Assembly (NCBI GenBank): GCA_905234745.1 | Contig: CAJOJD010000002.1 | Location: 214,635-248,062, forward strand | From: an uncultured Bacteroidaceae bacterium | GTDB lineage: Bacteria; Bacteroidota; Bacteroidia; Bacteroidales; Bacteroidaceae | Length of the DNA: 33,428 nt | Direction of reading: 5' to 3' | Shown here: in pieces, positions 5,718-29,144 of the stretch | How the letters are laid out: each line of letters starts with the position of its first letter | How positions within the stretch are numbered: the stretch's first letter is position 1 | Notes under the pieces: generated by a model | What the model saw: the letters and a program-made list of their open reading frames with translations, nothing else | The model's database searches: none | What the model was told of the DNA's origin: nothing | Position numbers and translations under genes: made by a program

Positions 5718-6455
5718 TTATTTTCGTTTCTTACATACCACCTGACCGTCGTAGGCTACACTGATTGAACGGTATTTGTTCCAGCCCACCTTGTCAAGAC
5801 CCTTTTCATAGAAGTTCATGAGACGCTCCAGTTTATCCTCCACGTCATCGGCCGTACCCAGAATCAGCAGATGGTCACCCACCCGGGGCACCAGTTCTAT
5901 CTGGCCGTCACGGGTCACGTTTATCTGCTCAATCTGCGCCTTCCAGAATTCGGAACGGTCCAATGCACGGACCACCTGCAGGAGCTCATTCGCCGCAAAA
6001 CGCCTGTCGATATATCCTGTCGCTACAGGCAACTGTACGGCAAGCGAGCGCTGTGAGAGTATCTCACCCCTGCTGTCCACATAGAAATCATTGCCCCTGT
6101 TGTTTATTACACGCACCAGAGGAACCTTGCTGGACAGGTTTATCCTGAGCATGTCACCTCCGGTCTTGTAACACTGGGCTTTGCCAACCAGCGGATGCAT
6201 AAGCAGCGTTGCCTCAATCTTCTCGGGGTCAATCTCATCCAGGGGCAAGCCCACCGGATCGACTGAATGCTCCTGGAGAACGGCAAGCACCATATCTTCG
6301 TTGATAAGGTCAAAATGGAGACTGTCCGTAATATGCAGGTCCACGCCACGGCACAGACGGGTATCCTCATGCCTGTCTGTCATTGCCAGCACCGAATATC
6401 CCAGATATCCGGCCAGCACTATAACCGATAATATGGACAGTATCTTCTTAAGCAC
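5718..6455 (-). CDS. ftsQ: Cell division protein FtsQ (POTRA domain)
   Basis: Bitopic membrane protein linking early and late divisome parts. The 245-residue product has one N-terminal membrane helix (residues about 4-25, ILSILSVIVLAGYLGYSVLAM) followed by a periplasmic POTRA/FtsQ region (from about 40) that includes VPLVRVINNRGNDFYVDSRGEIL. The start is a GTG at 6453-6455, one base after the TAA of murG-murC, which suggests translational coupling. Sequence similarity in this family is low, so the call leans on topology and on its place between murC and ftsA. Confidence 0.88.
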   Translation of the reverse strand: MLKKILSILSVIVLAGYLGYSVLAMTDRHEDTRLCRGVDLHITDSLHFDLINEDMVLAVLQEHSVDPVGLPLDEIDPEKIEATLLMHPLVGKAQCYKTGGDMLRINLSSKVPLVRVINNRGNDFYVDSRGEILSQRSLAVQLPVATGYIDRRFAANELLQVVRALDRSEFWKAQIEQINVTRDGQIELVPRVGDHLLILGTADDVEDKLERLMNFYEKGLDKVGWNKYRSISVAYDGQVVCKKRK

Positions 6456-6456
6456 C

Positions 6457-8961
6457 TTATTTCAGTATCCTGGTTATGGTTTCAACATAATCCTCCAGAT
6501 CACCTGCACCCAGAGTAACCAGCACCTGGACATCGTCCTTGATGGACTCGACCAGCTCAGGAACCTGATTGCGTGATATTATTCCCTTGCACACTCCCGG
6601 CTTCATGTTATCGGCCAGCAGGTTGCTTGTAACACCCGGTATGGGTTGCTCGCGTGCGGGATAGATCTCCAGCAGCCAAACCTCGTCAAACAACGACAGG
6701 CTGTCCGAGAACTCATTGTAGAAATCCCTTGTGCGGGTATACAGATGCGGCTGGAATATACATGTAAGCTTGCGGTCGGCATAGAGCTTGCGCAGCGAGA
6801 GAGCGCACTGGCGTATTTCCTCGGGGTGATGGGCGTAGTCACTCAGATATACCTTGTCATCCTTCTTTACGTGGAAGTCAAAACGGCGGTCACATCCGCG
6901 GAATGAGCCGATGCGCTCGCGTATGACATCGTCCGATGCTCCGCTCAACTGAGCCATTGCCATTGCAGCCACGGCATTCGTGACATTGATGGGGATAGGC
7001 ACTCCCAATTCCACATTTGAGATATTGCCGAACGGTGATATGAAATCAAACACCAGCTCACCGTTGCCTACCCTTATGTTGGCGGCATGGAAGTATCCCT
7101 CATCCTCGCCGTAAGTGTAAAGGTTCACGCCCTTCTGGAGTTGGGGCATTAACTTGTCTGCCAATCCCACATGCAGTATCAGGTCACCTCCTGGTTTTAT
7201 CAGTGAACAGTATTTGCGGAAACTCTCCACATATGCCTCATATGTACCGTAAATGTCCAGATGGTCTGCATCGACGGCCGTTATCACCGTACGCAGCGGA
7301 GTCAGATGATGGAACGAGCGGTCAAACTCATCGGCCTCGATTACCACGCGGCGGCTCTTTTTGCTTATCATCAGGTTACTGCCCGTGTTCTTGAGTATTC
7401 CGCCCAGGAATGCGTTACAGCCCTCCTGTGTGCCGTCCAGGATATATGCCAGCATCGATGACGTAGTTGTCTTGCCGTGTGTGCCGGCCACGCAGAGTCC
7501 GTCCAGCGAACGGGTAAGGGTACCCAGCACCTGGGCGCGTTTCTGCACGTCAAAGCAGTGCAGGTTGAACCAGCTCAGTATCTGATTGTCAGCCGGAATA
7601 GCCGGAGTGTAAACCACAAGTGTCGATGACTGGTCCTTGAAACAGGGATCCACCTTGTCCACATCATCCTCAAATCCAATCTGTGCGCCCTCCTTGATCA
7701 GGGCCGATGTCAGATCGGTCGATGTACGGTCATAACCTCCCACCTTGCATCCGCGAGCCAGGAAATAGCGAACCAGCGCGCTCATTCCTATACCTCCGGC
7801 ACCTACGAAATAGACGGATCTGATGTCATCAAGGCTCAGCGATCCGCTGCCGTAACCTGCCAGTCTGAGCACCTCACGGGCAATGATCTCGGCAGAATCA
7901 TGCATGGCCAGTTTAAGTATGCTCTCACGGAGCTGCTCCAGACGCGCATCGTCCTTTACCAGATCCACTGCGGCAGGAATCAGTTCCTTTTTGGCATCCA
8001 CATCACGGATATGGATTGCGGCATCCTTATCGGCCAATGCCAAAGCATTCTTTGTCTGATGGTCCTCGGCCACATTGGGTGAAGGAACCAGAATTACGGG
8101 TTTACCCAGAAGGCAAAGTTCGGATATCGTTCCGGCACCGGCGCGTGAAATAACCAGGTCGGCGGCTGCATAAGCCTGATCCATATCCTGTACGAACTCA
8201 GTAGGGAAGAGGTTGTCAACCGGCTCCACTGCTGCCAGGCGGTTCTTCATCTCCTCAAAGTAGTACTTTCCGGTCTGCCATACGAACTGCACGTCATACG
8301 ACATACGTATCAGGTCCAGATTGGCCATCACGCTCTCGTTAAGCGTACGGGCACCCAGACTGCCTCCCACGATAAGCACTGTCCTCTTGTCGGGATCAAG
8401 CCCCATGCCTGCGGCTGCTTCCTTGCGTGTAATGCCTCCCTTGGTAAGTGTGGGACGGACCGGATTACCTGTCTTGATTATCTTGTCGGCAGGGAAGAAA
8501 CGCTCCATGCCGTCATATGCAACGCAGATCTTTGACGCTTTCTTGGCCAGTATCTTATTGGTGACTCCCGCATACGAGTTCTGCTCCTGGAGCAGCGTCG
8601 GGATACCCATTTTTCCTGCTATGCGCAGCGTGGGGCCGCTGGCATAACCGCCCACACCCACTGCAACCATGGGACGGAACTGACGTATGATGCGGCGTGC
8701 CATAATCTGGCTGCGCATGATCTTGAACAGCACCACAATGTTCTTGAACGGATTCTTGCGGTCGAATCCGCAGATGGGCAGTCCTTTTATGTTGAAACCG
8801 GCCTGCGGTACGCGCTGCATCTCCATTCGCCCCTGGGCTCCCACAAAAAGGATCTCGGTTTCAGGGTTGAGTGCCTTGATTGCATGCGCTATTGATACAG
8901 CCGGGAAAATATGTCCTCCCGTACCGCCTCCGCTTATTATAATTCTAGGTTTTGAATCCAT
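6457..8961 (-). CDS. murG/murC: MurG-MurC fusion: lipid II-forming GlcNAc transferase plus UDP-MurNAc:L-alanine ligase
   Basis: One uninterrupted 834-residue frame covers two normally separate enzymes. Residues 1 to about 369 are MurG, which adds GlcNAc to lipid I at the inner membrane face: GGGTGGHIFPA at 11-21, VGVGGYASGP, VGGSLGARTLNES and the donor-binding RAGAGTISEL. Residues about 378-834 are MurC, which adds L-alanine to UDP-MurNAc: Rossmann GAGGIGMSAL (388-397), P-loop GTHGKTTTS (493-501), EADEFDRSF, and YAHHPEEI. The linker is about YGSGSLSL (nt 7830-7854). There is no in-frame ATG, GTG or TTG at the junction from which MurC could start separately. ATG at 8961 (MDSKPRIIIS) was chosen; a 35-residue upstream extension would run into ftsW. 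The gene lies between ftsW and ftsQ, where separate murG and murC usually sit. Confidence 0.93.
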   Translation of the reverse strand: MDSKPRIIISGGGTGGHIFPAVSIAHAIKALNPETEILFVGAQGRMEMQRVPQAGFNIKGLPICGFDRKNPFKNIVVLFKIMRSQIMARRIIRQFRPMVAVGVGGYASGPTLRIAGKMGIPTLLQEQNSYAGVTNKILAKKASKICVAYDGMERFFPADKIIKTGNPVRPTLTKGGITRKEAAAGMGLDPDKRTVLIVGGSLGARTLNESVMANLDLIRMSYDVQFVWQTGKYYFEEMKNRLAAVEPVDNLFPTEFVQDMDQAYAAADLVISRAGAGTISELCLLGKPVILVPSPNVAEDHQTKNALALADKDAAIHIRDVDAKKELIPAAVDLVKDDARLEQLRESILKLAMHDSAEIIAREVLRLAGYGSGSLSLDDIRSVYFVGAGGIGMSALVRYFLARGCKVGGYDRTSTDLTSALIKEGAQIGFEDDVDKVDPCFKDQSSTLVVYTPAIPADNQILSWFNLHCFDVQKRAQVLGTLTRSLDGLCVAGTHGKTTTSSMLAYILDGTQEGCNAFLGGILKNTGSNLMISKKSRRVVIEADEFDRSFHHLTPLRTVITAVDADHLDIYGTYEAYVESFRKYCSLIKPGGDLILHVGLADKLMPQLQKGVNLYTYGEDEGYFHAANIRVGNGELVFDFISPFGNISNVELGVPIPINVTNAVAAMAMAQLSGASDDVIRERIGSFRGCDRRFDFHVKKDDKVYLSDYAHHPEEIRQCALSLRKLYADRKLTCIFQPHLYTRTRDFYNEFSDSLSLFDEVWLLEIYPAREQPIPGVTSNLLADNMKPGVCKGIISRNQVPELVESIKDDVQVLVTLGAGDLEDYVETITRILK

Positions 8962-8974
8962 ATATTGTTGTTTT

Positions 8975-10249
8975 TTAAATCTCGTCAAATGATTCGTTTC
9001 CGTCAACTGCCGACGGCACTTCGGCCTGTGTTCCCAATGCCTCCTCTCCGCGCGCCTCCTTGTCAAGCACGTTGCTTATGCCAAGCAGCATACCTATGCA
9101 TCCGCTTGTCATCAGGACCGATGTTCCTCCCTTGCTTATGAGTGGCAGCGGCTGTCCCGTAACAGGGAACAGTCCCACTGCAACCGACATGTTTATGAAT
9201 GCCTGCAGCCCCAGCAGCATGCCGAGTCCCATGGCCAGGAATGCCGGATATTTCTCCTTGCAGCGCGTTGCTATACGTCCTACCCTGAAAAGCAGGATCA
9301 CATATACAAGCATCACCACGACTCCTCCGACCACACCCAGTTCCTCTATGATGATGGCATATATAAAGTCACAACTGGCCTCCTGCAGATAATCACGCTC
9401 ATGCGAGTTGCCCGGACCTTTACCCAACACATTGCTGGTGGCTATGGCTATGTTTGCATGAGTCTCCTGCGGTTTCTCAGGGGCTACGAGTTTGGCATAT
9501 TCGTATGCGTTGGGCTTGTTCTTGGTCTGGCTGAAATCCTGAAGTCTTGCCTGCCACGTGGTGGCACGTGAAGGTATGATTTTGGAATCACGGATTGTCT
9601 GTGCGGGAACGAACAGCAGCACGACCACCGCCACAATGCCTGCTCCCACCACGACTCCCGTCAGAGCGAGCATCCTGCGCCATGCTATTCCGCCCAGTAT
9701 CATCATCACGAATATAACACCTGCCAGCAGGACGGCGGTCGAGAGGTTCTCACCCACAATAAGTGCGCAGACCAGACCTGTCAGACCCAGGATCTTCCAG
9801 AAGGTATTGATCTGGCTGAGTTCATCCTCGGGCTTGAGTTTGGAGAGCCAGTATGCCACAGACATTATGACACCTATCTTTCCGAGTTCGGACGGCTGCA
9901 ACTGGAAGAATCCCAGGTTTATCCAGCGCTCGGCACCCGATGAGCCCAAACCGCGTATGGACAGATAGCCAAGCAGCAGTATTGACAACGGAACGAGCAA
10001 TACCGGGAACAGTCTGTACCACTTGTAGTGGAGCAGATGAACCAGCCACATTCCAAACAGACCTGCGCCCAGGTGAATGGTATGTGATATTATGGGAGTC
10101 AGGAAACTGCTCTTGCCGAATGTGAGACGGCTGCTGGCGCTGAACACCTCGACAAGAGATATTGCGCACAGTATGAAGACCATAGTCCAGATGGTACGGT
10201 CTCCGTTAAGCAGTTGCCTGCGTTTGGGTTTATCCTCGGTATTCTCCAT
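8975..10249 (-). CDS. ftsW: Septal peptidoglycan glycosyltransferase FtsW (SEDS family)
   Basis: Polytopic SEDS polymerase that builds septal glycan strands with its partner class B PBP. It has many membrane helices, the conserved stretch SGAERWINLGFFQLQPSELGKIG, a GENLSTAVL helix and the late PLISKGGTSVLMTSGCIGMLLGI. ATG at 10249 (MENTEDKPKRRQ) gives 424 residues and sits 8 nt after the restored murD stop; an alternative start at 10276 would overlap murD. Acidic C-terminal tail (about 25 residues). Partner ftsI is in the same cluster. Confidence 0.95.
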   Translation of the reverse strand: MENTEDKPKRRQLLNGDRTIWTMVFILCAISLVEVFSASSRLTFGKSSFLTPIISHTIHLGAGLFGMWLVHLLHYKWYRLFPVLLVPLSILLLGYLSIRGLGSSGAERWINLGFFQLQPSELGKIGVIMSVAYWLSKLKPEDELSQINTFWKILGLTGLVCALIVGENLSTAVLLAGVIFVMMILGGIAWRRMLALTGVVVGAGIVAVVVLLFVPAQTIRDSKIIPSRATTWQARLQDFSQTKNKPNAYEYAKLVAPEKPQETHANIAIATSNVLGKGPGNSHERDYLQEASCDFIYAIIIEELGVVGGVVVMLVYVILLFRVGRIATRCKEKYPAFLAMGLGMLLGLQAFINMSVAVGLFPVTGQPLPLISKGGTSVLMTSGCIGMLLGISNVLDKEARGEEALGTQAEVPSAVDGNESFDEI

Positions 10250-10257
10250 ATCTCGTT

Positions 10258-11584
10258 TTATAATGCTCTCACACACGCCTTGAACTGGTCGCCGCGGTCC
10301 TCATAGCTCTTAAAGAGGTCAAAGCTGGCACAGCAGGGACTCAACAATACAATATCGCCGCTGTGAGCCATCCTGTAGGCCGCATCCACCGCATCCTTCA
10401 TGGACTGGACATCGGCCACGGGAAGTCCGAATCCGTCAAAGAAGTCATTCGTTGTGCAGACCCATGTAAACCAATCCGCAGCATTTCTCGCGTACCAGAT
10501 CGGCTATCTCGTTGTAGTCGTTACCCTTGTCCTTGCCGCCCAGTATCAGGACGCACTTTACAGGCATGCTCTGCAAGGCATACCAGCAGCTGTTCACGTT
10601 GGTGGCCTTGGAGTCGTTGATGAAGTCAACTCCGTTAACCCTCGTAACGCGCTCCAGACGGTGCTCCACGCCCTGGAATGTCTGCAAAGCCTTGCGTATG
10701 GTCTCGCTCTTGATACCGGCTATGTTGGCCGATATACCTGCGGCCATTGAGTTGTAAAGGTTGTGCTTGCCCGTAAGTGAGAGAGACTCCTGCTCCATAT
10801 TGAAAGCGTAGGGCTTTGTAAAGTACAGGGTTCCGTCCTCGACATATGCGGCCAGATCCTCACGCTTTGCCTCGGCAAAAGGATAGAGAGTAGCCTTGAG
10901 TCCGTATCTTTTGAGTTCACGGGTGATGATGGGGTCATCGCTCCAGTAAACGAACGCATCATCCTTGGTCTGGTTGCGTATGACACGCATCTTGGCGTCG
11001 ACATAGTTCTGCATCTCATGGTCATAACGGTCCAGATGATCCGGGGTTATGTTCATGAGGATGGCAATGTCGGCCTTGAAGTCATACATGTTGTCCAGCT
11101 GGAAACTGCTCAGCTCTATCACATAGTAGTCAAAGTTCTTCTCGGCTACCTGCCAAGCCAGGCTGCTTCCGATGTTTCCGGCCAGGCCCACGTTCATACC
11201 GGCCATCTTGAATATATGGTATATGAGCGATGTGGTAGTGGTCTTGCCGTTGGAGCCGGTTATGCAGATCATCTTGGCGTTGGTGTATCGGCCGGCAAAC
11301 TCAATCTCCGAGATGATGGGGGTTCCCTGTGCCATCAGTTTCTGTATGATGGGAGCCTCCTTGGGAATGCCCGGGCTCTTTATCACCTCATCGGCAGCCA
11401 GGATCCTGGCCTCTGTATGCTGTTTCTGTTCCCACTCTATTCCGCGCAGGTCCAGTTCCTTACGGTAATGCTCCTTAATCTCGGACAGGTCCGATACAAA
11501 CACGTCGAATCCCTTGGCCTTTGCCAGAATTGCTGCGCCTGTACCGCTCTCGCCTGCTCCTAAAACTACGATCTTCTTTGCCAT
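10258..11584 (-). CDS. murD: UDP-MurNAc-L-alanine:D-glutamate ligase MurD, with a frame break near the 3' end
   Basis: Adds D-glutamate to UDP-MurNAc-L-Ala. The first 379 codons (to 10448) encode an N-terminal Rossmann region ([11 protein letters not shown]), P-loop [10 protein letters not shown] (110-119), the central domain ([10 protein letters not shown]) and C-terminal motifs including [10 protein letters not shown]. The frame then hits TGA at 10445-10447. The missing end lies in the next frame at 10258-10443: 61 residues with [19 protein letters not shown]..., typical of a MurD C-terminus, ending TAA 8 nt before ftsW. A +1 shift at TGA-C would give about 441 residues, a normal MurD length. 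MurD is normally essential, so options are a sequencing or assembly indel, programmed frameshifting, or a true mutation. The start is 5 nt after mraY. Confidence 0.9.
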
Positions 11585-20370: not shown

Positions 20371-22359
20371 TTAATGCTTATCCTCCTTGTATGCGAATAT
20401 GCTCTTGGGGCACCACTCCATGTAATCAAAGTTCATCTCGGCGTTGGGATTCTCCAATACAAGCCTCATACGCAGATAGTAGGTCTTGTCGGCCTTGAAG
20501 TAATCGGTCGTGATTATACGGCGTGCTATCAGACCTCCGTTGTAATTGCGGAACGTCTGACCATCGGAGTTCATATCGCCCGTGTAATGGGAGTCCGGAC
20601 CCTTCATGTATCCGCGGTTGTGCATAGCCTTGTCATATGCGTCAATGGCAATGGTGTCGCCGTTGAAATCATCATCGGATTTCCAACGGATATTGGGGTT
20701 ATCGGCAGCCGAATAACGCAGGTCTGTGGGTATTCCGCAGGGAGCGAGCATGAGCGGGTCATCACCGACATAATTCTGGACAACGCCGCAACCGGCCGAT
20801 CCACGGTACGACAGACGAAGTTCCCAGGTACCGTCATGCGGTACGGGAGGCAGCTTGAGCATGATGTCATAATTACCCTGCAGGTCCAGTCCGTCCACCC
20901 ACATGCAGTAATCCTGATTGAACGAATGGAAATTCGTGGGCTGCAGGAATCCTACACCCTCATAATTGCTCTCGGTCTTTTTCTGGCGTGCGCCCGATGT
21001 CATGAAATCCGGAGAAAGAGTGCAGCAGTCAATCCTGAGACGACGGTCAAGAACGCTGTTCCTTATAAAATCAGAGTACTCCAGAATGTCATCGATATAG
21101 AACATATAGCCGTTGCAGCCCTCGTTCATGGTTTCAGCCTCAACCTCCGTTATCTTTATTCCACGATAGAAATCACGGCCTATCTCACCTGCACCGTCAG
21201 GACCTACGCCGCGACGGTTTATGTAAACGCCGTTGTAATCACCGGTTTCCATGATTCTTGAGAAACGCATCAGTGAATGCGGGAGATAGGTCTCATAGTA
21301 ATCCTCGGCATCAAGTAGTGAAGTTACCACCTTGGCCTTTATGATATCTTCGCGACAGTTGAAGTTCGTGATTGAAGGCACGCTGAAAGGCAGTATATGA
21401 TAACGTACAAAACGGCGCAGCGGACAGCGGTCATCGGACCATATGGTGTCATACTTGTCACCTAATGCATCATATTCCATCTTGTAGGAATCATGATACA
21501 CCCTGTTGGCATAATCTATCAGATCCTCAAGAGTCTCTATTCCATGCTGCCTGTAAACATCATCCGTTTCGGCCATGATGGTAAAGCCGAAATTCTTCTC
21601 CGGGACATAACGGATGGTATAGTCGGAACCGCCACCCTGCTTGATTATTCCCTCATAAGCCGAGTCGTAACTTACCGAATAAGTCTTGTCATGCCATTTC
21701 TGAAGCGAATCCTGAAGACATACCAGATCCAGCGCATTGTAGAACAGGCTCACTTTGGGATTTGACTTGACGATATCATAAATGTAATCACCCGATACCC
21801 TTATCACATTGTCCACCACATGGACTACACCATTCTGCACGGTATCATCATCGTCTATCACTATGCTCTCCCTGTTGATTGTGGGGCGTGCCTTGATGAT
21901 GCCGTTGGACAGGGTATCCTCCATGTAACCCATGACAAGGAAACGGTTAAGCCTGTTGACCGATGGCAGACCGCCCTCATTCTGGTCTTTAAGGAACAGG
22001 GTGGTATTGATAAGATGGGTTCTGGCTATGGTATCGCAATCCTCGAACGACAGCGAATCGACAGAACTTATGTTTCTTGATTCAAGATATTTCTCAAAAG
22101 CCCTGTCTGTGGGAGCAAAACAGGTGTAATTACCGTAAGTTTCCAACTCACCGTATACTCTGGCTTTCTTAAGGACCTTGAGGAACGAATCAAAACGCTG
22201 GGCCGTATCCTGCTCAAGGTAATCGACTACGGTCTGTCCCTGGAACACATAATATGTGCCCGGGTGCTGCTCACTCCATATGTCTGAGCAGGCTACAAAC
22301 AATGCAGAAAAGGCTACTGCAAAGAGTGCTTTACGTAAAAACAAGCAAGTTCTTTTCAT
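20371..22359 (-). CDS. Fasciclin (FAS1) domain lipoprotein
   Basis: Predicted lipoprotein: signal peptide MKRTCLFLRKALFAVAFSALFVAC with a lipobox cysteine at about residue 24. A FAS1-type segment follows (TVVDYLEQDTAQRFDSFLKVLKKA ... YGNYTCFAPTDRAFEKYL ... THLINTTLF ... NGVVHVVDNVI), and a second degenerate FAS1-like block may occupy about 190-360 (RRFVRYHILPF). The rest, to residue 662, matches no domain I recognise. FAS1 proteins usually act in adhesion or at the cell surface; a SusD/SusC locus is not seen nearby. ATG at 22359 fits the signal peptide; extending to 22569 would run antisense through tRNA-Val and is rejected. Confidence 0.82.
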   Translation of the reverse strand: MKRTCLFLRKALFAVAFSALFVACSDIWSEQHPGTYYVFQGQTVVDYLEQDTAQRFDSFLKVLKKARVYGELETYGNYTCFAPTDRAFEKYLESRNISSVDSLSFEDCDTIARTHLINTTLFLKDQNEGGLPSVNRLNRFLVMGYMEDTLSNGIIKARPTINRESIVIDDDDTVQNGVVHVVDNVIRVSGDYIYDIVKSNPKVSLFYNALDLVCLQDSLQKWHDKTYSVSYDSAYEGIIKQGGGSDYTIRYVPEKNFGFTIMAETDDVYRQHGIETLEDLIDYANRVYHDSYKMEYDALGDKYDTIWSDDRCPLRRFVRYHILPFSVPSITNFNCREDIIKAKVVTSLLDAEDYYETYLPHSLMRFSRIMETGDYNGVYINRRGVGPDGAGEIGRDFYRGIKITEVEAETMNEGCNGYMFYIDDILEYSDFIRNSVLDRRLRIDCCTLSPDFMTSGARQKKTESNYEGVGFLQPTNFHSFNQDYCMWVDGLDLQGNYDIMLKLPPVPHDGTWELRLSYRGSAGCGVVQNYVGDDPLMLAPCGIPTDLRYSAADNPNIRWKSDDDFNGDTIAIDAYDKAMHNRGYMKGPDSHYTGDMNSDGQTFRNYNGGLIARRIITTDYFKADKTYYLRMRLVLENPNAEMNFDYMEWCPKSIFAYKEDKH

Positions 22360-22400
22360 AAGTTTATATTGGTTAGTCTTGAAAATCCTTTTTAATGCCT

Positions 22401-22408
22401 CAAATATA
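22401..22408 (-). promoter_or_regulatory. -7 element for the fasciclin lipoprotein
   Basis: TATATTTG on the minus strand matches TAnnTTTG and lies about 42 nt before the ATG at 22359. The -33 region is only TTCTG-like, so this is a moderate call. Confidence 0.5.
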
Positions 22409-22465
22409 GTATAAATATTCGAATATAGCAGAACCGCCAAGTATTGCAGATTCGGGAAATTGGTG

Positions 22466-22473
22466 TACCTTTG
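22466..22473 (+). promoter_or_regulatory. Promoter -7 element of tRNA-Val(GAC)
   Basis: TACCTTTG fits TAnnTTTG. ATTG, 19 nt upstream (22443-22446), is close to the TTTG -33 box. Transcription would start near 22480, just before the tRNA at 22494. Confidence 0.65.
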
Positions 22474-22493
22474 CAGCGCCTCAGGGCAGTACC

Positions 22494-22568
22494 GATCCTT
22501 TAGCTCAGTTGGTTTAGAGCGCTTGCTTGACAGGCAAGAGGTCAGCAGTTCAAATCTGCTAAGGATCA
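22494..22568 (+). tRNA. tRNA-Val (anticodon GAC)
   Basis: Acceptor strands GATCCTT and AAGGATC pair perfectly. The D arm has TAGCTCAGTTGGTTTAGAGC, the anticodon stem CTTGC/GCAAG holds loop TTGACAG (anticodon GAC), and the T arm is AGCAG-TTCAAAT-CTGCT. The discriminator is A; CCA is not encoded in full. Confidence 0.95.
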
Positions 22569-22570
22569 CA

Positions 22571-25812: not shown

Positions 25813-25856
25813 TAAAAAGAGAAACGCGGGATTCACAGTCCCGCGTTTCTTTTTTA
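25813..25856. terminator. Bidirectional terminator between hydrolase and M56 gene
   Basis: Stem GAAACGCGGGA/TCCCGCGTTTC (25821-25831 with 25839-25849), loop TTCACAG, A-rich on the left and T-rich on the right. It serves the plus-strand hydrolase and the minus-strand M56 gene, whose TAA (25854-25856) abuts the T tract. Confidence 0.92.
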
Positions 25857-28730
25857 TTCCACTATCGGCTCCAGAGTCATCTGCATGATATCACCGTTCT
25901 TTATTTCTTCAACTCCGAATCTGACTGGAGCCATGATATAGAAATGATTTCTTCCTCCGTAGTTATCGTAATATGGAGAATCCTTATCAATAATCTCCTC
26001 TATGACTCTGAATATCATTTGGTTCTTCTTAATCTTCAGAACCAACAGGTCTGGCGCATCAGGATCTTTTGCCATATCGGTTCCTTTCAATTCCTTTATC
26101 TCTGACGGATGTTTCCAAACCAAATCATATTTGCCATTGGGGAACAGACCGGATTCGTCACCGGCAAATGTTATCTTTTCTTTTTCATCAACAGTAACCT
26201 TTACTATCTTCAATGGCTTGAAACCGATAGCCTCATCATCCTCTACAACAGCTGTATGGACTTCAGCACTATAGGTACCCTGGATAATATCACCAACATT
26301 TTCTATCGTTATTCCTTCAGGCTTTCCCGGTTGCCACAGCTTGATGCTTACCGGCTCATGGCATACCGATCCGGAGAGCGTAGGAATACCCTCATCCCAC
26401 TCCTCCTCGGAAATGGCAGGGAATATCACCTGATAAGGAGATGATACCCAGTCTCCGTGACGGTCAAAGTCCTCATTTACCGGAAGTCCTTCAATCCTTA
26501 TGGCATCCAGAACCTTTCCGTTGGCAAGAGTCAGTTTGTAGTCATTGCCTATATGTCCGGGGAACGAGTGGTTTGCCCTGATGTACATAAGGCAGTAGAC
26601 GGTTGTCTCATCCTCGCCAAAATCAACCCTGTCGGCGGCAAACTCATCCTTGACATCATCATTGAGATGTGTGGTCTTAAGATAGGTATGTCCATTAACT
26701 TCAATACTGCGTACATTATCAAACATGCTGACATCCTCTGTCACCTGGATCTTCTTCATGTTTATGTTCAGCGTCTTCTCCCTGAAATTGATGTTCTTGA
26801 CATCCTTGGGCAGAGCCGGGAAGTGTATGGTCTGACAAACGAATCCGTATGTAGGATTCCAGAAATAGTGATTCAGGAAATCGTCCATTCCTTCATTCTT
26901 TATCTCTTTAATCCATTGGCCGTTAACCTCAATCTCACATTCGCTCAAACCGGTCACCCACTGATCCCTGTACTGATGGGTGGTGAACACCATAATAAAT
27001 TCATCATCGGCATTGACCAGATTCATGTAAATCCAGTCATCCTCGGGATTATAGAAAACCTTGGGGTCGTGGATATGCAATCCCTTGCCATAATACTTCT
27101 CTGTCAGGTCATACAGCATCTGCTTTGCCGCTGTCTTTGCATCCATACCCGGATAATGGCTTTCAATGTTGAAGTTCTTGGGAATGATGGTGATATTATG
27201 ATCAAAACCACTTCTGGGATTAATAGATACACCAATTCCTACTGGCACAGCTCTGATTTCTTCTTCTTCAATATCGGTTACAATTGAGAACTGATCAATA
27301 CCACGGCCAAAAGTGGCTTGGGACAGGATGTCCGCATCCCTAGCACTCATTTTATCGGGATAAATGGATACGCCGTGTCCATCGAACAGGTTTATCCACT
27401 TCTTCATCAGATTGATATCACCGGTAATTGAAGGTGTGGGATACTTGATGTATGAGCTGTCACCAAACATTGCTGCCAAGCGATTATTTGACTTAAGGTT
27501 GCAGTTCAACTCAAACCTGTACTGTCCGCCGCCCAAGTCGAATATGCGTGCGGCACGATACTCAGGCATGGTCATCTGGGTAAGGATCTCGTCGTTGTTG
27601 GCAACGCTTATGCGGATACCTTTTGCCACAAGCTGCTCGGCCAGAGGCTGGACCTCGGCCAGACCTTCAATGGGATAGGTGTACATGAGGGTCATGCGGG
27701 TGGTCTTGAAATCCTTGTAGTTGGCAAGATAATCTGCCAATTCGCTGACCTTCATGCTGGCCTCGACACCGTTGAAAGTTCTTACTTTACAGGTTCCGTC
27801 CTGGTAAATCCAGGTCTTACCGTCTTCAAATACCGGCCAGCGGAAAGTGCTGTCCTCGGCCATAGCCACATTTGCAGTCGCAAACAAGAAGAAATACGCG
27901 ATTGCAGGGATGAACAGGACTCTGAGCCTGCTCCATCCGTTTGATTGCTTTTTGTCCATCATATCTATTCTCTTTTTTAGGTTGGATTGCTTAAGCCAAC
28001 TGGTCATAGCCATTCCGCGGCTGGCAGCTACTGCGTTAACCAGCATGAGTTTATACTCCTTGGGATTGGCTCCGCTGTCAATCACCGCGCGGTCTGCCTC
28101 ATACTCGTGTATGAGCTCAAACTCCTTGCGCAGCAGTATCATTACCGGATTGAACCATTGGAATGCCGTCATGACATCGGCCATAAGAAGGTCCAGAGAG
28201 TGCCAGCGGTGTGCATGCAGGTTCTCATGTTTCCAGACCGATGCGTTCTCAGATTCCAGCCACTCGTGCGGCATGACGATGAACCGCATCCAGTTGAGCG
28301 GTCCGGGAATCTGGTCGGACTCGATTACGTCAACGCCTTCGGCGCGGTCGGCATAACGGCCCTTGCGTATGATGCGTGACATAGTCCATACTGAAAAACC
28401 CTTTTTAATGAGCACGAACAGCACACCTGCCCCGTACAACACCAAAAGTATTGCAAACAGGTTTACGGGTGCAGATGTCTGTGCGGCTGTTGCATCCATG
28501 TCAGATACAACCAACTGGGTGTTCTCTTCCACTGCGCCTGCATTATCGGCTGCAATGGGTTGTCTTGTAATATGGAAGAGAGGCAAAACAAAGGAGAGAA
28601 GAGCAATGGTTATCAGAACCAACCGGTTAAAGCGGTGGAACGTCTCACGTCCCAGCAGCAGACGGTAACCGCCAAACAGCACGGCTACAAGAACTGCCAC
28701 CTTGACCTGATATATTAACAATGCCTCCAT
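25854..28730 (-). CDS. BlaR1/MecR1-like M56 metallopeptidase with large C-terminal sensor region
   Basis: 958 residues. The first 290 or so are an M56 membrane protease: membrane helices at about 6-24, 36-52, 90-108 and 270-291, and the zinc site HENLH (168-172) with a downstream HEYEAD (208-213). In BlaR1/MecR1 systems this protease inactivates the BlaI-type repressor encoded next door. Instead of a penicillin-binding sensor, residues about 292-958 form a long extracytoplasmic region that I do not recognise; it lacks SxxK/KTG motifs. Two similar N-terminal segments (FRWPVFEDGKTWIYQDGTC) suggest beta-rich domains. It follows the BlaI-like gene by 54 bp. No target gene such as a beta-lactamase is adjacent. 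Confidence 0.85.
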   Translation of the reverse strand: MEALLIYQVKVAVLVAVLFGGYRLLLGRETFHRFNRLVLITIALLSFVLPLFHITRQPIAADNAGAVEENTQLVVSDMDATAAQTSAPVNLFAILLVLYGAGVLFVLIKKGFSVWTMSRIIRKGRYADRAEGVDVIESDQIPGPLNWMRFIVMPHEWLESENASVWKHENLHAHRWHSLDLLMADVMTAFQWFNPVMILLRKEFELIHEYEADRAVIDSGANPKEYKLMLVNAVAASRGMAMTSWLKQSNLKKRIDMMDKKQSNGWSRLRVLFIPAIAYFFLFATANVAMAEDSTFRWPVFEDGKTWIYQDGTCKVRTFNGVEASMKVSELADYLANYKDFKTTRMTLMYTYPIEGLAEVQPLAEQLVAKGIRISVANNDEILTQMTMPEYRAARIFDLGGGQYRFELNCNLKSNNRLAAMFGDSSYIKYPTPSITGDINLMKKWINLFDGHGVSIYPDKMSARDADILSQATFGRGIDQFSIVTDIEEEEIRAVPVGIGVSINPRSGFDHNITIIPKNFNIESHYPGMDAKTAAKQMLYDLTEKYYGKGLHIHDPKVFYNPEDDWIYMNLVNADDEFIMVFTTHQYRDQWVTGLSECEIEVNGQWIKEIKNEGMDDFLNHYFWNPTYGFVCQTIHFPALPKDVKNINFREKTLNINMKKIQVTEDVSMFDNVRSIEVNGHTYLKTTHLNDDVKDEFAADRVDFGEDETTVYCLMYIRANHSFPGHIGNDYKLTLANGKVLDAIRIEGLPVNEDFDRHGDWVSSPYQVIFPAISEEEWDEGIPTLSGSVCHEPVSIKLWQPGKPEGITIENVGDIIQGTYSAEVHTAVVEDDEAIGFKPLKIVKVTVDEKEKITFAGDESGLFPNGKYDLVWKHPSEIKELKGTDMAKDPDAPDLLVLKIKKNQMIFRVIEEIIDKDSPYYDNYGGRNHFYIMAPVRFGVEEIKNGDIMQMTLEPIVE

Positions 28731-28784
28731 TATATTCTCTTGAATTAATTATTAGTAAAAGGTATGATCGGGTTTGTTGAGGAT

Positions 28785-29144
28785 TTATGACTCCTCCTTG
28801 ATCCTTTTTATGAGATCCTCAAGTTCATCGACGCTTATCTTGTCATCCTTGACCAGCGCCGAAACCGCATCAATGTACGAGTTCTCAAAGCAGTGCGACA
28901 CTATACGTCCTATTGACGTGTTGCTGTACTCGTCACGGCCGATGGCTGCGTGATAGCGGTACCCCATACCCTCTTTCTCGTGACCCAGGAATCCGTTTGA
29001 CTCCAGCAGACGCACCTGGGTGGAGATGGTGTTCTGGTGAGGTTTGGGCTCCGGCAAGAGTTCCCTGAGCTCACCGACGGTCATGGCTCCGTTTTGCCAG
29101 AACAGCTCCATGATCTCTTCTTCTTTCTTACTTAATCTTTTCAT
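28785..29144 (-). CDS. BlaI/MecI family transcriptional repressor
   Basis: 119 residues, winged helix: MKRLSKKEEEIMELFWQNGAMTVGELRELLP followed by the recognition helix HQNTISTQVRLLESNGFLGHEKEG and wing YRYHA. The C-terminal helices (SALVKDDKISVDELEDLIKRIKEE) match the dimerisation region. Partner of the M56 gene. Three dyads lie upstream, so autorepression is likely. ATG at 29144 gives the normal family start and length. Confidence 0.93.
   Translation of the reverse strand: MKRLSKKEEEIMELFWQNGAMTVGELRELLPEPKPHQNTISTQVRLLESNGFLGHEKEGMGYRYHAAIGRDEYSNTSIGRIVSHCFENSYIDAVSALVKDDKISVDELEDLIKRIKEES

Follow-up and report, generated by a model that had tools for sequence, protein, structure and literature searches.

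The window, i.e., the whole stretch of DNA that was analysed (33,428 nucleotides), carries murG and murC as one gene. MurC begins the peptide chain of the cell wall, and MurG completes the building block of the wall. Judged from the sequence, the product of the joined gene is very probably a genuine bifunctional MurG-MurC polypeptide with both predicted enzymes on one chain. The same stop-free fusion, covering residues 1-834 or nearly so, was found in 31 of the 37 genomes of the genus that were searched, and the two genes are separate in the other six.

The fused gene and its two enzyme halves

The original prediction described 834 residues in one open frame between 6457 and 8961. This proved correct for the minus strand, a strand that it had not named; frame 1 of the plus strand contains many stops over the same interval. 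The mechanical open reading frame extends further, to a TTG at 9066. The start was nevertheless set at the ATG at 8961, because the starts of close congeners fall at this position and because the extra part overlaps the end of ftsW. The predicted mass of the protein is 91.6 kDa, in line with the 91 kDa anticipated earlier. The features discussed below are the following.

5718-6455, minus strand: ftsQ, directly downstream (PF03799, E 1.1e-07), its GTG lying one base past the stop of the fused gene
6457-8961, minus strand: murG-murC fused gene, 834 codons and a stop (ATG at 8961, stop at 6459-6457)
6460-7815, minus strand: MurC half, residues 383-834, three Mur ligase domains (TIGR01082, PF01225, PF08245, PF02875; folds 2f00, 1p3d)
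7462-7485, minus strand: ATP-binding P-loop of MurC, GTHGKTTT, residues 493-500 (alignment of 46 fused proteins)
7816-7857, minus strand: linker, residues 369-382, GYGSGSLSLDDIRS, containing the former N-terminal tail of MurC
About residues 367-382: predicted tryptic peptide spanning the junction, LAGYGSGSLSLDDIR, with the cut after R366
7837-7839, minus strand: CTG codon (L375) at the usual MurC start site of split relatives, 8 codons before VYF
7870-7872, minus strand: in-frame GTG (V364), a possible internal start situated 19 codons ahead of the first MurC strand
7903-7905, minus strand: in-frame ATG (M353) within the last part of MurG, a possible internal start situated 30 codons ahead of the first MurC strand
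7858-8961, minus strand: MurG half, residues 1-368, N- and C-terminal GT28 domains (TIGR01133, PF03033, PF04101; folds 1f0k, 3s2u)
8911-8931, minus strand: glycine-rich loop of MurG, GGGTGGH, residues 11-17 (alignment of 46 fused proteins)
8975-10249, minus strand: ftsW, directly upstream (ATG at 10249; PF01098, 214.4 bits for the frame 8975-10276)

Both halves are complete enzymes by their profiles, as the original prediction had proposed, and their motifs are intact. The MurG half reaches 287.4 bits with TIGR01133 (NCBIfam cut-off 250.25) and covers positions 6-351 of the 353 of the profile. The MurC half covers positions 2-445 of the 449 of TIGR01082 (E 3.7e-96), and its 322.9 bits lie just below the cut-off of 335.1. 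This cut-off is likewise missed by the fused protein of locus L003 and by three of the four split MurC proteins tested, and the fused proteins L031 and L119 exceed it. The next-best families for the MurC half are Mpl (98.9 bits) and MurD (79.3 bits). In Pfam, both GT28 domains and all three Mur ligase domains are present, and the same five domains occur in each of ten other fused proteins scanned.

The motifs were compared in 46 fused proteins, 31 from the genus and 15 from elsewhere. In the MurG half, GGGTGGH and GGYASGP are identical in all 46, SRAGA is kept in all 46 and the G following it in 41, and the residues of DHQ are kept in 45, 46 and 46. These motifs are taken to be the glycine-rich loops and donor-site motifs of MurG. 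GTHGKT, DYAHHP and YPARE, presumably the ATP P-loop and the ligase motifs of MurC, are also identical in all 46 proteins; the last two threonines of GTHGKTTT are kept in 45 and 44. As a separate observation, the window has a threonine (T661; 6979-6981, minus strand) within the MurC motif INVTNAVAA which is absent at that position in the 45 other fused and 20 split proteins.

By sequence, the MurC half is closest to solved MurC structures from several bacteria, and the MurG half to those of the P. aeruginosa and E. coli enzymes. An AlphaFold2 model built from 86 aligned rows has a mean pLDDT of 90 and a pTM of 0.62, and matches 2f00 (E. coli MurC) and 1p3d as well as the MurG structures 1f0k and 3s2u. 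The low pTM is read from this model as two confident folds whose mutual pose is unsure.

In this assembly (79.94% complete), the fused gene is the sole copy found of both murG and murC. Further upstream, the frame of murD (10258-11584, minus strand) is broken. It stops at 10447-10445 after 379 residues, and the apparent remainder of MurD continues in another frame to about 10258. Frames at the murD locus measure 445-479 residues in the 36 remaining genomes of the genus, compared with 407 in this one. The break is probably an assembly error, but it is possibly real.

Conservation of the fusion and of its junction

The protein search covered 37 genomes of the genus, and all 37 loci were re-translated. 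A search for the joined architecture in relatives had been proposed as a check in the original prediction, and the 31 fused congeners are its outcome. They include RUG14495, Horse_feces29 MAG029 and RGIG7228 (water buffalo cecum), which are labelled as Bacteroidales or Bacteroidaceae bacteria. The members of the fused group are gut bacteria that have been recognised mostly through metagenomes.

An assembly or sequencing artefact, in which an indel or a lost stop joins two genes, would be conceivable in an assembly whose murD frame is interrupted (near 10445). However, the stop-free junction is common to all 31 genomes, and 30 of the 31 fused genes have no ATG between -12 and +9 (codons relative to the first MurC strand); one has it. 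An indel artefact is ruled out by the recurrence of the same fusion, and the chance of any such error having produced it is negligible. The earlier rejection of an artefact, argued from the frames around a single indel, thus holds on better ground. The out-of-frame ATG on which that argument drew was found at 7829-7827.

The frame has stayed open in the 31 genomes across synonymous distances that range from about 0.5 up to saturation (19 pairs computed), which is more than chance would allow. Between the window and L003, dN and dS are 0.034 and 0.84 for MurG, and 0.052 and 0.717 for MurC. For both halves, dN is far below dS wherever dS can be estimated among the 19 pairs, some distant ones being saturated. 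At the level of substitutions, such low dN against high dS shows that selection acts on both halves. Further matches in the 31 fused genomes are weak, reaching at most 45.8 bits, and concern the Mur ligase part only. The most complete of these genomes, G017 (100%) and G007 (97%), each have the fused match and one weak match. Two essential activities therefore probably depend on the fused gene alone, as far as these matches indicate.

At the junction, YGSGSLSL connects the last MurG helix (EVLRLAG) with the MurC strand VYFVGAGGIGM. The octapeptide, already recognised in the original prediction, corresponds to residues 370-377 (7854-7831). In the split congener L113, MurG ends with EVLKLADNG and a stop, and MurC begins with M-EINQIKSVYF, its ATG being 8 codons ahead of VYF. 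The linker of the 31 fused genes comprises 14 residues in 27 genes; three genes have a linker of 13 residues and one has 15. In 15 of the 19 pairs its dN is higher than that of either enzyme, the exceptions being four close pairs. Against L022, L023, L025 and L029, for instance, the linker dN is 0.48-0.67, compared with 0.145-0.23 for the enzymes.

A short, variable linker, modelled by AlphaFold2 with lower confidence than most of the chain, could be the target of a protease releasing free MurG and MurC. Yet no cleavage motif shared by the 31 linkers was seen by eye, and the length of the linker is almost constant among them; such processing is very unlikely.

Internal initiation is the other way in which free MurC could arise, and the fusion would then matter little. 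The original prediction had stated that MurC has no in-frame start. This is inexact for the window itself, where the ATG at 7905 and the GTG at 7872 lie in frame upstream of MurC, and from which MurC with a short tail of MurG could be made. A CTG might serve as well, and a fusion in another genus (G720) retains an ATG at the former MurC start. Neither codon is conserved in the 31 fused genes. An ATG at the distance of M353 is found in 16 of them, and a GTG at the distance of V364 in 13 (14 if the linker of L026, shorter by one codon, is allowed for).

The codon at the former MurC start also varies freely: CTG occurs seven times, CTC six, CTT and CTA five times each, GTG three times and TTT twice, with TTA, TTG and AAC once each. 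The position is a leucine-rich one where the codon is freely chosen, and not a start. Counting ATG, GTG and TTG, with rarer start codons outside the counts, 13 of the 31 fused genes, the window included, are devoid of any from -12 to +9. From -26 to +9 this applies to three genes, and from -50 to +9 to two (L009 and L020). The next in-frame ATG is at +10, within the nucleotide-binding loop GAGGIGM. A conserved internal MurC start as a general explanation is ruled out by this codon variation. Since the candidate starts are unconserved and lacking altogether in some fused genes, free MurC made by usual initiation is no general feature of the clade. It may be made in the window itself, but internal initiation as the explanation is improbable.

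Origin within the genus and spread beyond it

Trees of MurG and MurC hinted at two origins within the genus. In the tree of 55 genomes, 29 fused members of the genus group together and L031 and L112 stand apart. In the tree of 47 rows, two changes are needed, and one-change trees were recovered in none of 200 bootstraps. Nevertheless, the best MurG+MurC tree uniting all 31 fused genomes has a log-likelihood lower by only 0.06 (AU p 0.5). Two origins were not hinted at by the dcw tree, which was built from FtsZ, FtsA, FtsW, MraY, MurE, FtsI and RsmH (3243 columns). It included ten of the 31 fused genomes, with L031 and L112 among them, the six split congeners and five outgroups, one of which was 26% filled. 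The ten fused genomes form one clade in it, with support of 100/99. The 21 fused genomes outside this tree lie inside the main fused clade in the MurG+MurC trees. The single clade of the dcw tree suggests that one origin without reversal is the best reading of these sequences.

Split relatives with a MurC start of their own, which the original prediction would have counted against the fusion, do exist (6 of 37); yet they lie outside the fused clade of the dcw tree and show no artefact in the fused ones. In these six, the likely start of MurC is 1-11 bases past the stop of MurG, or overlaps it, out of frame. A single fusion at the base of the fused clade would thus have started from tightly packed or overlapping genes, and would have removed the stop codon of murG and the start codon of murC. 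Given the spacing in the split congeners, a small indel at such a tight junction is a plausible route.

Outside the genus, surveys were made at several levels. In a protein search of genome contigs, 80 named loci comprised three fusions, those of the three genus members with names given above, and 77 split pairs. The surveys of the order, family and phylum list strong contiguous matches only (E up to 1e-200, 1e-230 and 1e-160, respectively), and fusions with long linkers or from distant groups may be missed by them.

In the family (399 genomes, E up to 1e-230), G720 alone among the genomes of other genera gave a full-length match free of stops. Among the matches listed, it is also the only fusion in the 99 genomes of its own genus (g26), of which 78 were judged from the search matches listed and 20 from fetched regions. 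Long open frames had hinted at additional fusions in g26, but all 20 fetched regions (12 chosen for this reason and eight others) are split. The G720 gene (L122) keeps its ATG at the former MurC start in frame, and could yield both fused and free MurC. A search with the MurG half in 151 genomes of the family gave frames of at least 780 residues in six, all of the window's genus (nine drawn).

The survey of the order, which drew on 393 genomes with E up to 1e-200, revealed three other fusions, in G229, G233 and G086. The family of G229 (f91) has at least 12 fused genomes among 45, these 12 being verified by translation; two of the 45 gave no match. The f91 fusions (L119, L152-L160, L162 and L163) have linkers diverse in length and sequence, and split members are intermixed with them. 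One of the three genomes searched is fused in the family of G233, as is the single genome searched in the family of G086. Several independent fusion origins in Bacteroidales are likely.

No further fusion was found in the phylum among 395 genomes (E up to 1e-160), nor by a search with the MurG half in 148 genomes, 145 of which had a match. Eight MurG frames of at least 524 residues in the phylum survey were considered, and MurC is a separate open reading frame in each; no Pfam domain was detected ahead of MurG in the four of these eight that were scanned. The 614-residue frame of G437 contains MurG only and is not a fusion. In the frame of G441 (L176:432-2447, 672 residues), the front part of MurG runs straight into the second and third domains (middle and C-terminal) of MurC. 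This frame was not counted, as the parts facing the junction are missing, and is probably a deletion or a misassembly. A fusion of FtsW with MurG was also considered, and an FtsW domain was found in none of six frames scanned.

Proposed working and comparison with known Mur fusions

The two domains are expected to fold and act much like the free enzymes, with a short and variable tether between them. The main effects of the fusion would be that the two enzymes are made in a fixed 1:1 ratio and that MurC is positioned beside membrane-bound MurG and its partners. MurG is located at the inner leaflet of the membrane according to passages of two papers (PMC8256705, PMC6420597); MurC should therefore sit there too, at a ratio of 1:1. 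It is plausible that MurG tethers MurC to the membrane in this way. In a 2019 paper, MurG binds MurE-MurF with KD values of 0.57 and about 0.97 uM, and a scaffold role is proposed for it (PMC6420597). It is equally possible that the fusion is close to neutral and simply tolerated.

The original prediction suggested that tethering could favour channelling, which, in passages of a 2016 review, is proposed for Mur fusions generally (PMC4929429). In the strict sense, i.e., as the selected function of two coupled active sites, it is not supported here. The reactions of MurC and MurG are not consecutive, as MurD, MurE, MurF and MraY intervene (PMC6420597, PMC4929429), and the excerpted text of the review notes the same for MurG/MurC (PMC4929429). 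Direct hand-over of the MurC product to MurG is unlikely given these intervening enzymes. Moreover, the model places the two halves with no mutual confidence (pTM 0.62), and strict channelling is hardly credible. A looser idea is that the fusion is an evolved control device. It would pin the first ligase, at a strict ratio of 1:1, to the place where lipid II is made, and would so couple the entry into the lipid II pathway with the exit from it. This state would have been reached more than once in Bacteroidales as the genes adjoin. This idea is tentative, and we consider it rather unlikely.

The architecture itself is not new, and the fusion in the window is a well-supported further case. The original prediction had called it uncommon, which is fair, but it is already in print: a passage of the 2016 review describes MurG/MurC fusions found by its authors, C. 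gilvus being named in the legend of its Figure 3 (PMC4929429), and a passage of the 2019 paper counts MurG/MurC among the known Mur fusions (PMC6420597). Mur fusions that have been tested are MurE-MurF (PMC6420597), MurB/C (PMC4803751) and MurC-Ddl, which is named in PMC4803751. No experimental study of a MurG-MurC fusion was found in the open-licence literature among the matches listed, as judged from titles and the starts of abstracts.

In the actinomycete C. gilvus, the genes of MurG and MurC are likewise fused within the dcw cluster, but the organism belongs to another phylum, and the comparison is with the description in the excerpted review (PMC4929429). The split congeners and the members of the family point to an origin of the window's fusion inside its own genus, as far as their sequences tell. 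MurE-MurF of Bordetella pertussis also combines two mur genes in one chain and is tied to a complex centred on MurG; its reactions are, however, consecutive, and MurG is a separate protein there, according to the passages concerned (PMC6420597). Verrucomicrobium spinosum MurB/C is similar in that MurC is part of a lineage-restricted fusion, which is reported to complement murB and murC mutants of E. coli. It differs in its partner, in having MurC first, in a linker of about 100 residues and in its consecutive reactions, as stated in excerpts of the source (PMC4803751).

The MurC-Ddl of Chlamydia (NF011171) resembles the present case, as MurC is joined to a non-consecutive enzyme of the pathway, but partner and order are different. 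The window's protein matches NF011171 with its MurC part only, at positions 7-440 of 809, with 180.6 bits against a cut-off of 1015, i.e., below the level for membership.

The known picture of the pathway is unchanged by the fusion. The join of MurG and MurC can persist across at least 31 species-level genomes, and it occurs elsewhere in the order. The existence of a membrane-bound complex of Mur enzymes is still debated. This question has a natural test case in a lineage whose MurC is apparently unable to leave MurG and whose genus also contains split species for comparison.

Two other frames of the window deserve mention. The frame at 20371-22569 (minus strand, 732 residues) has a fasciclin domain (PF02469) at residues 125-256 only and is elsewhere without a Pfam match. 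The frame at 25854-29144 (minus strand, 958 residues) contains an M56 (BlaR1-like) peptidase domain at residues 11-257, followed by a long remainder without assignment. Adjoining it is a short frame (28785-29144), which presumably resembles a BlaI-type repressor.
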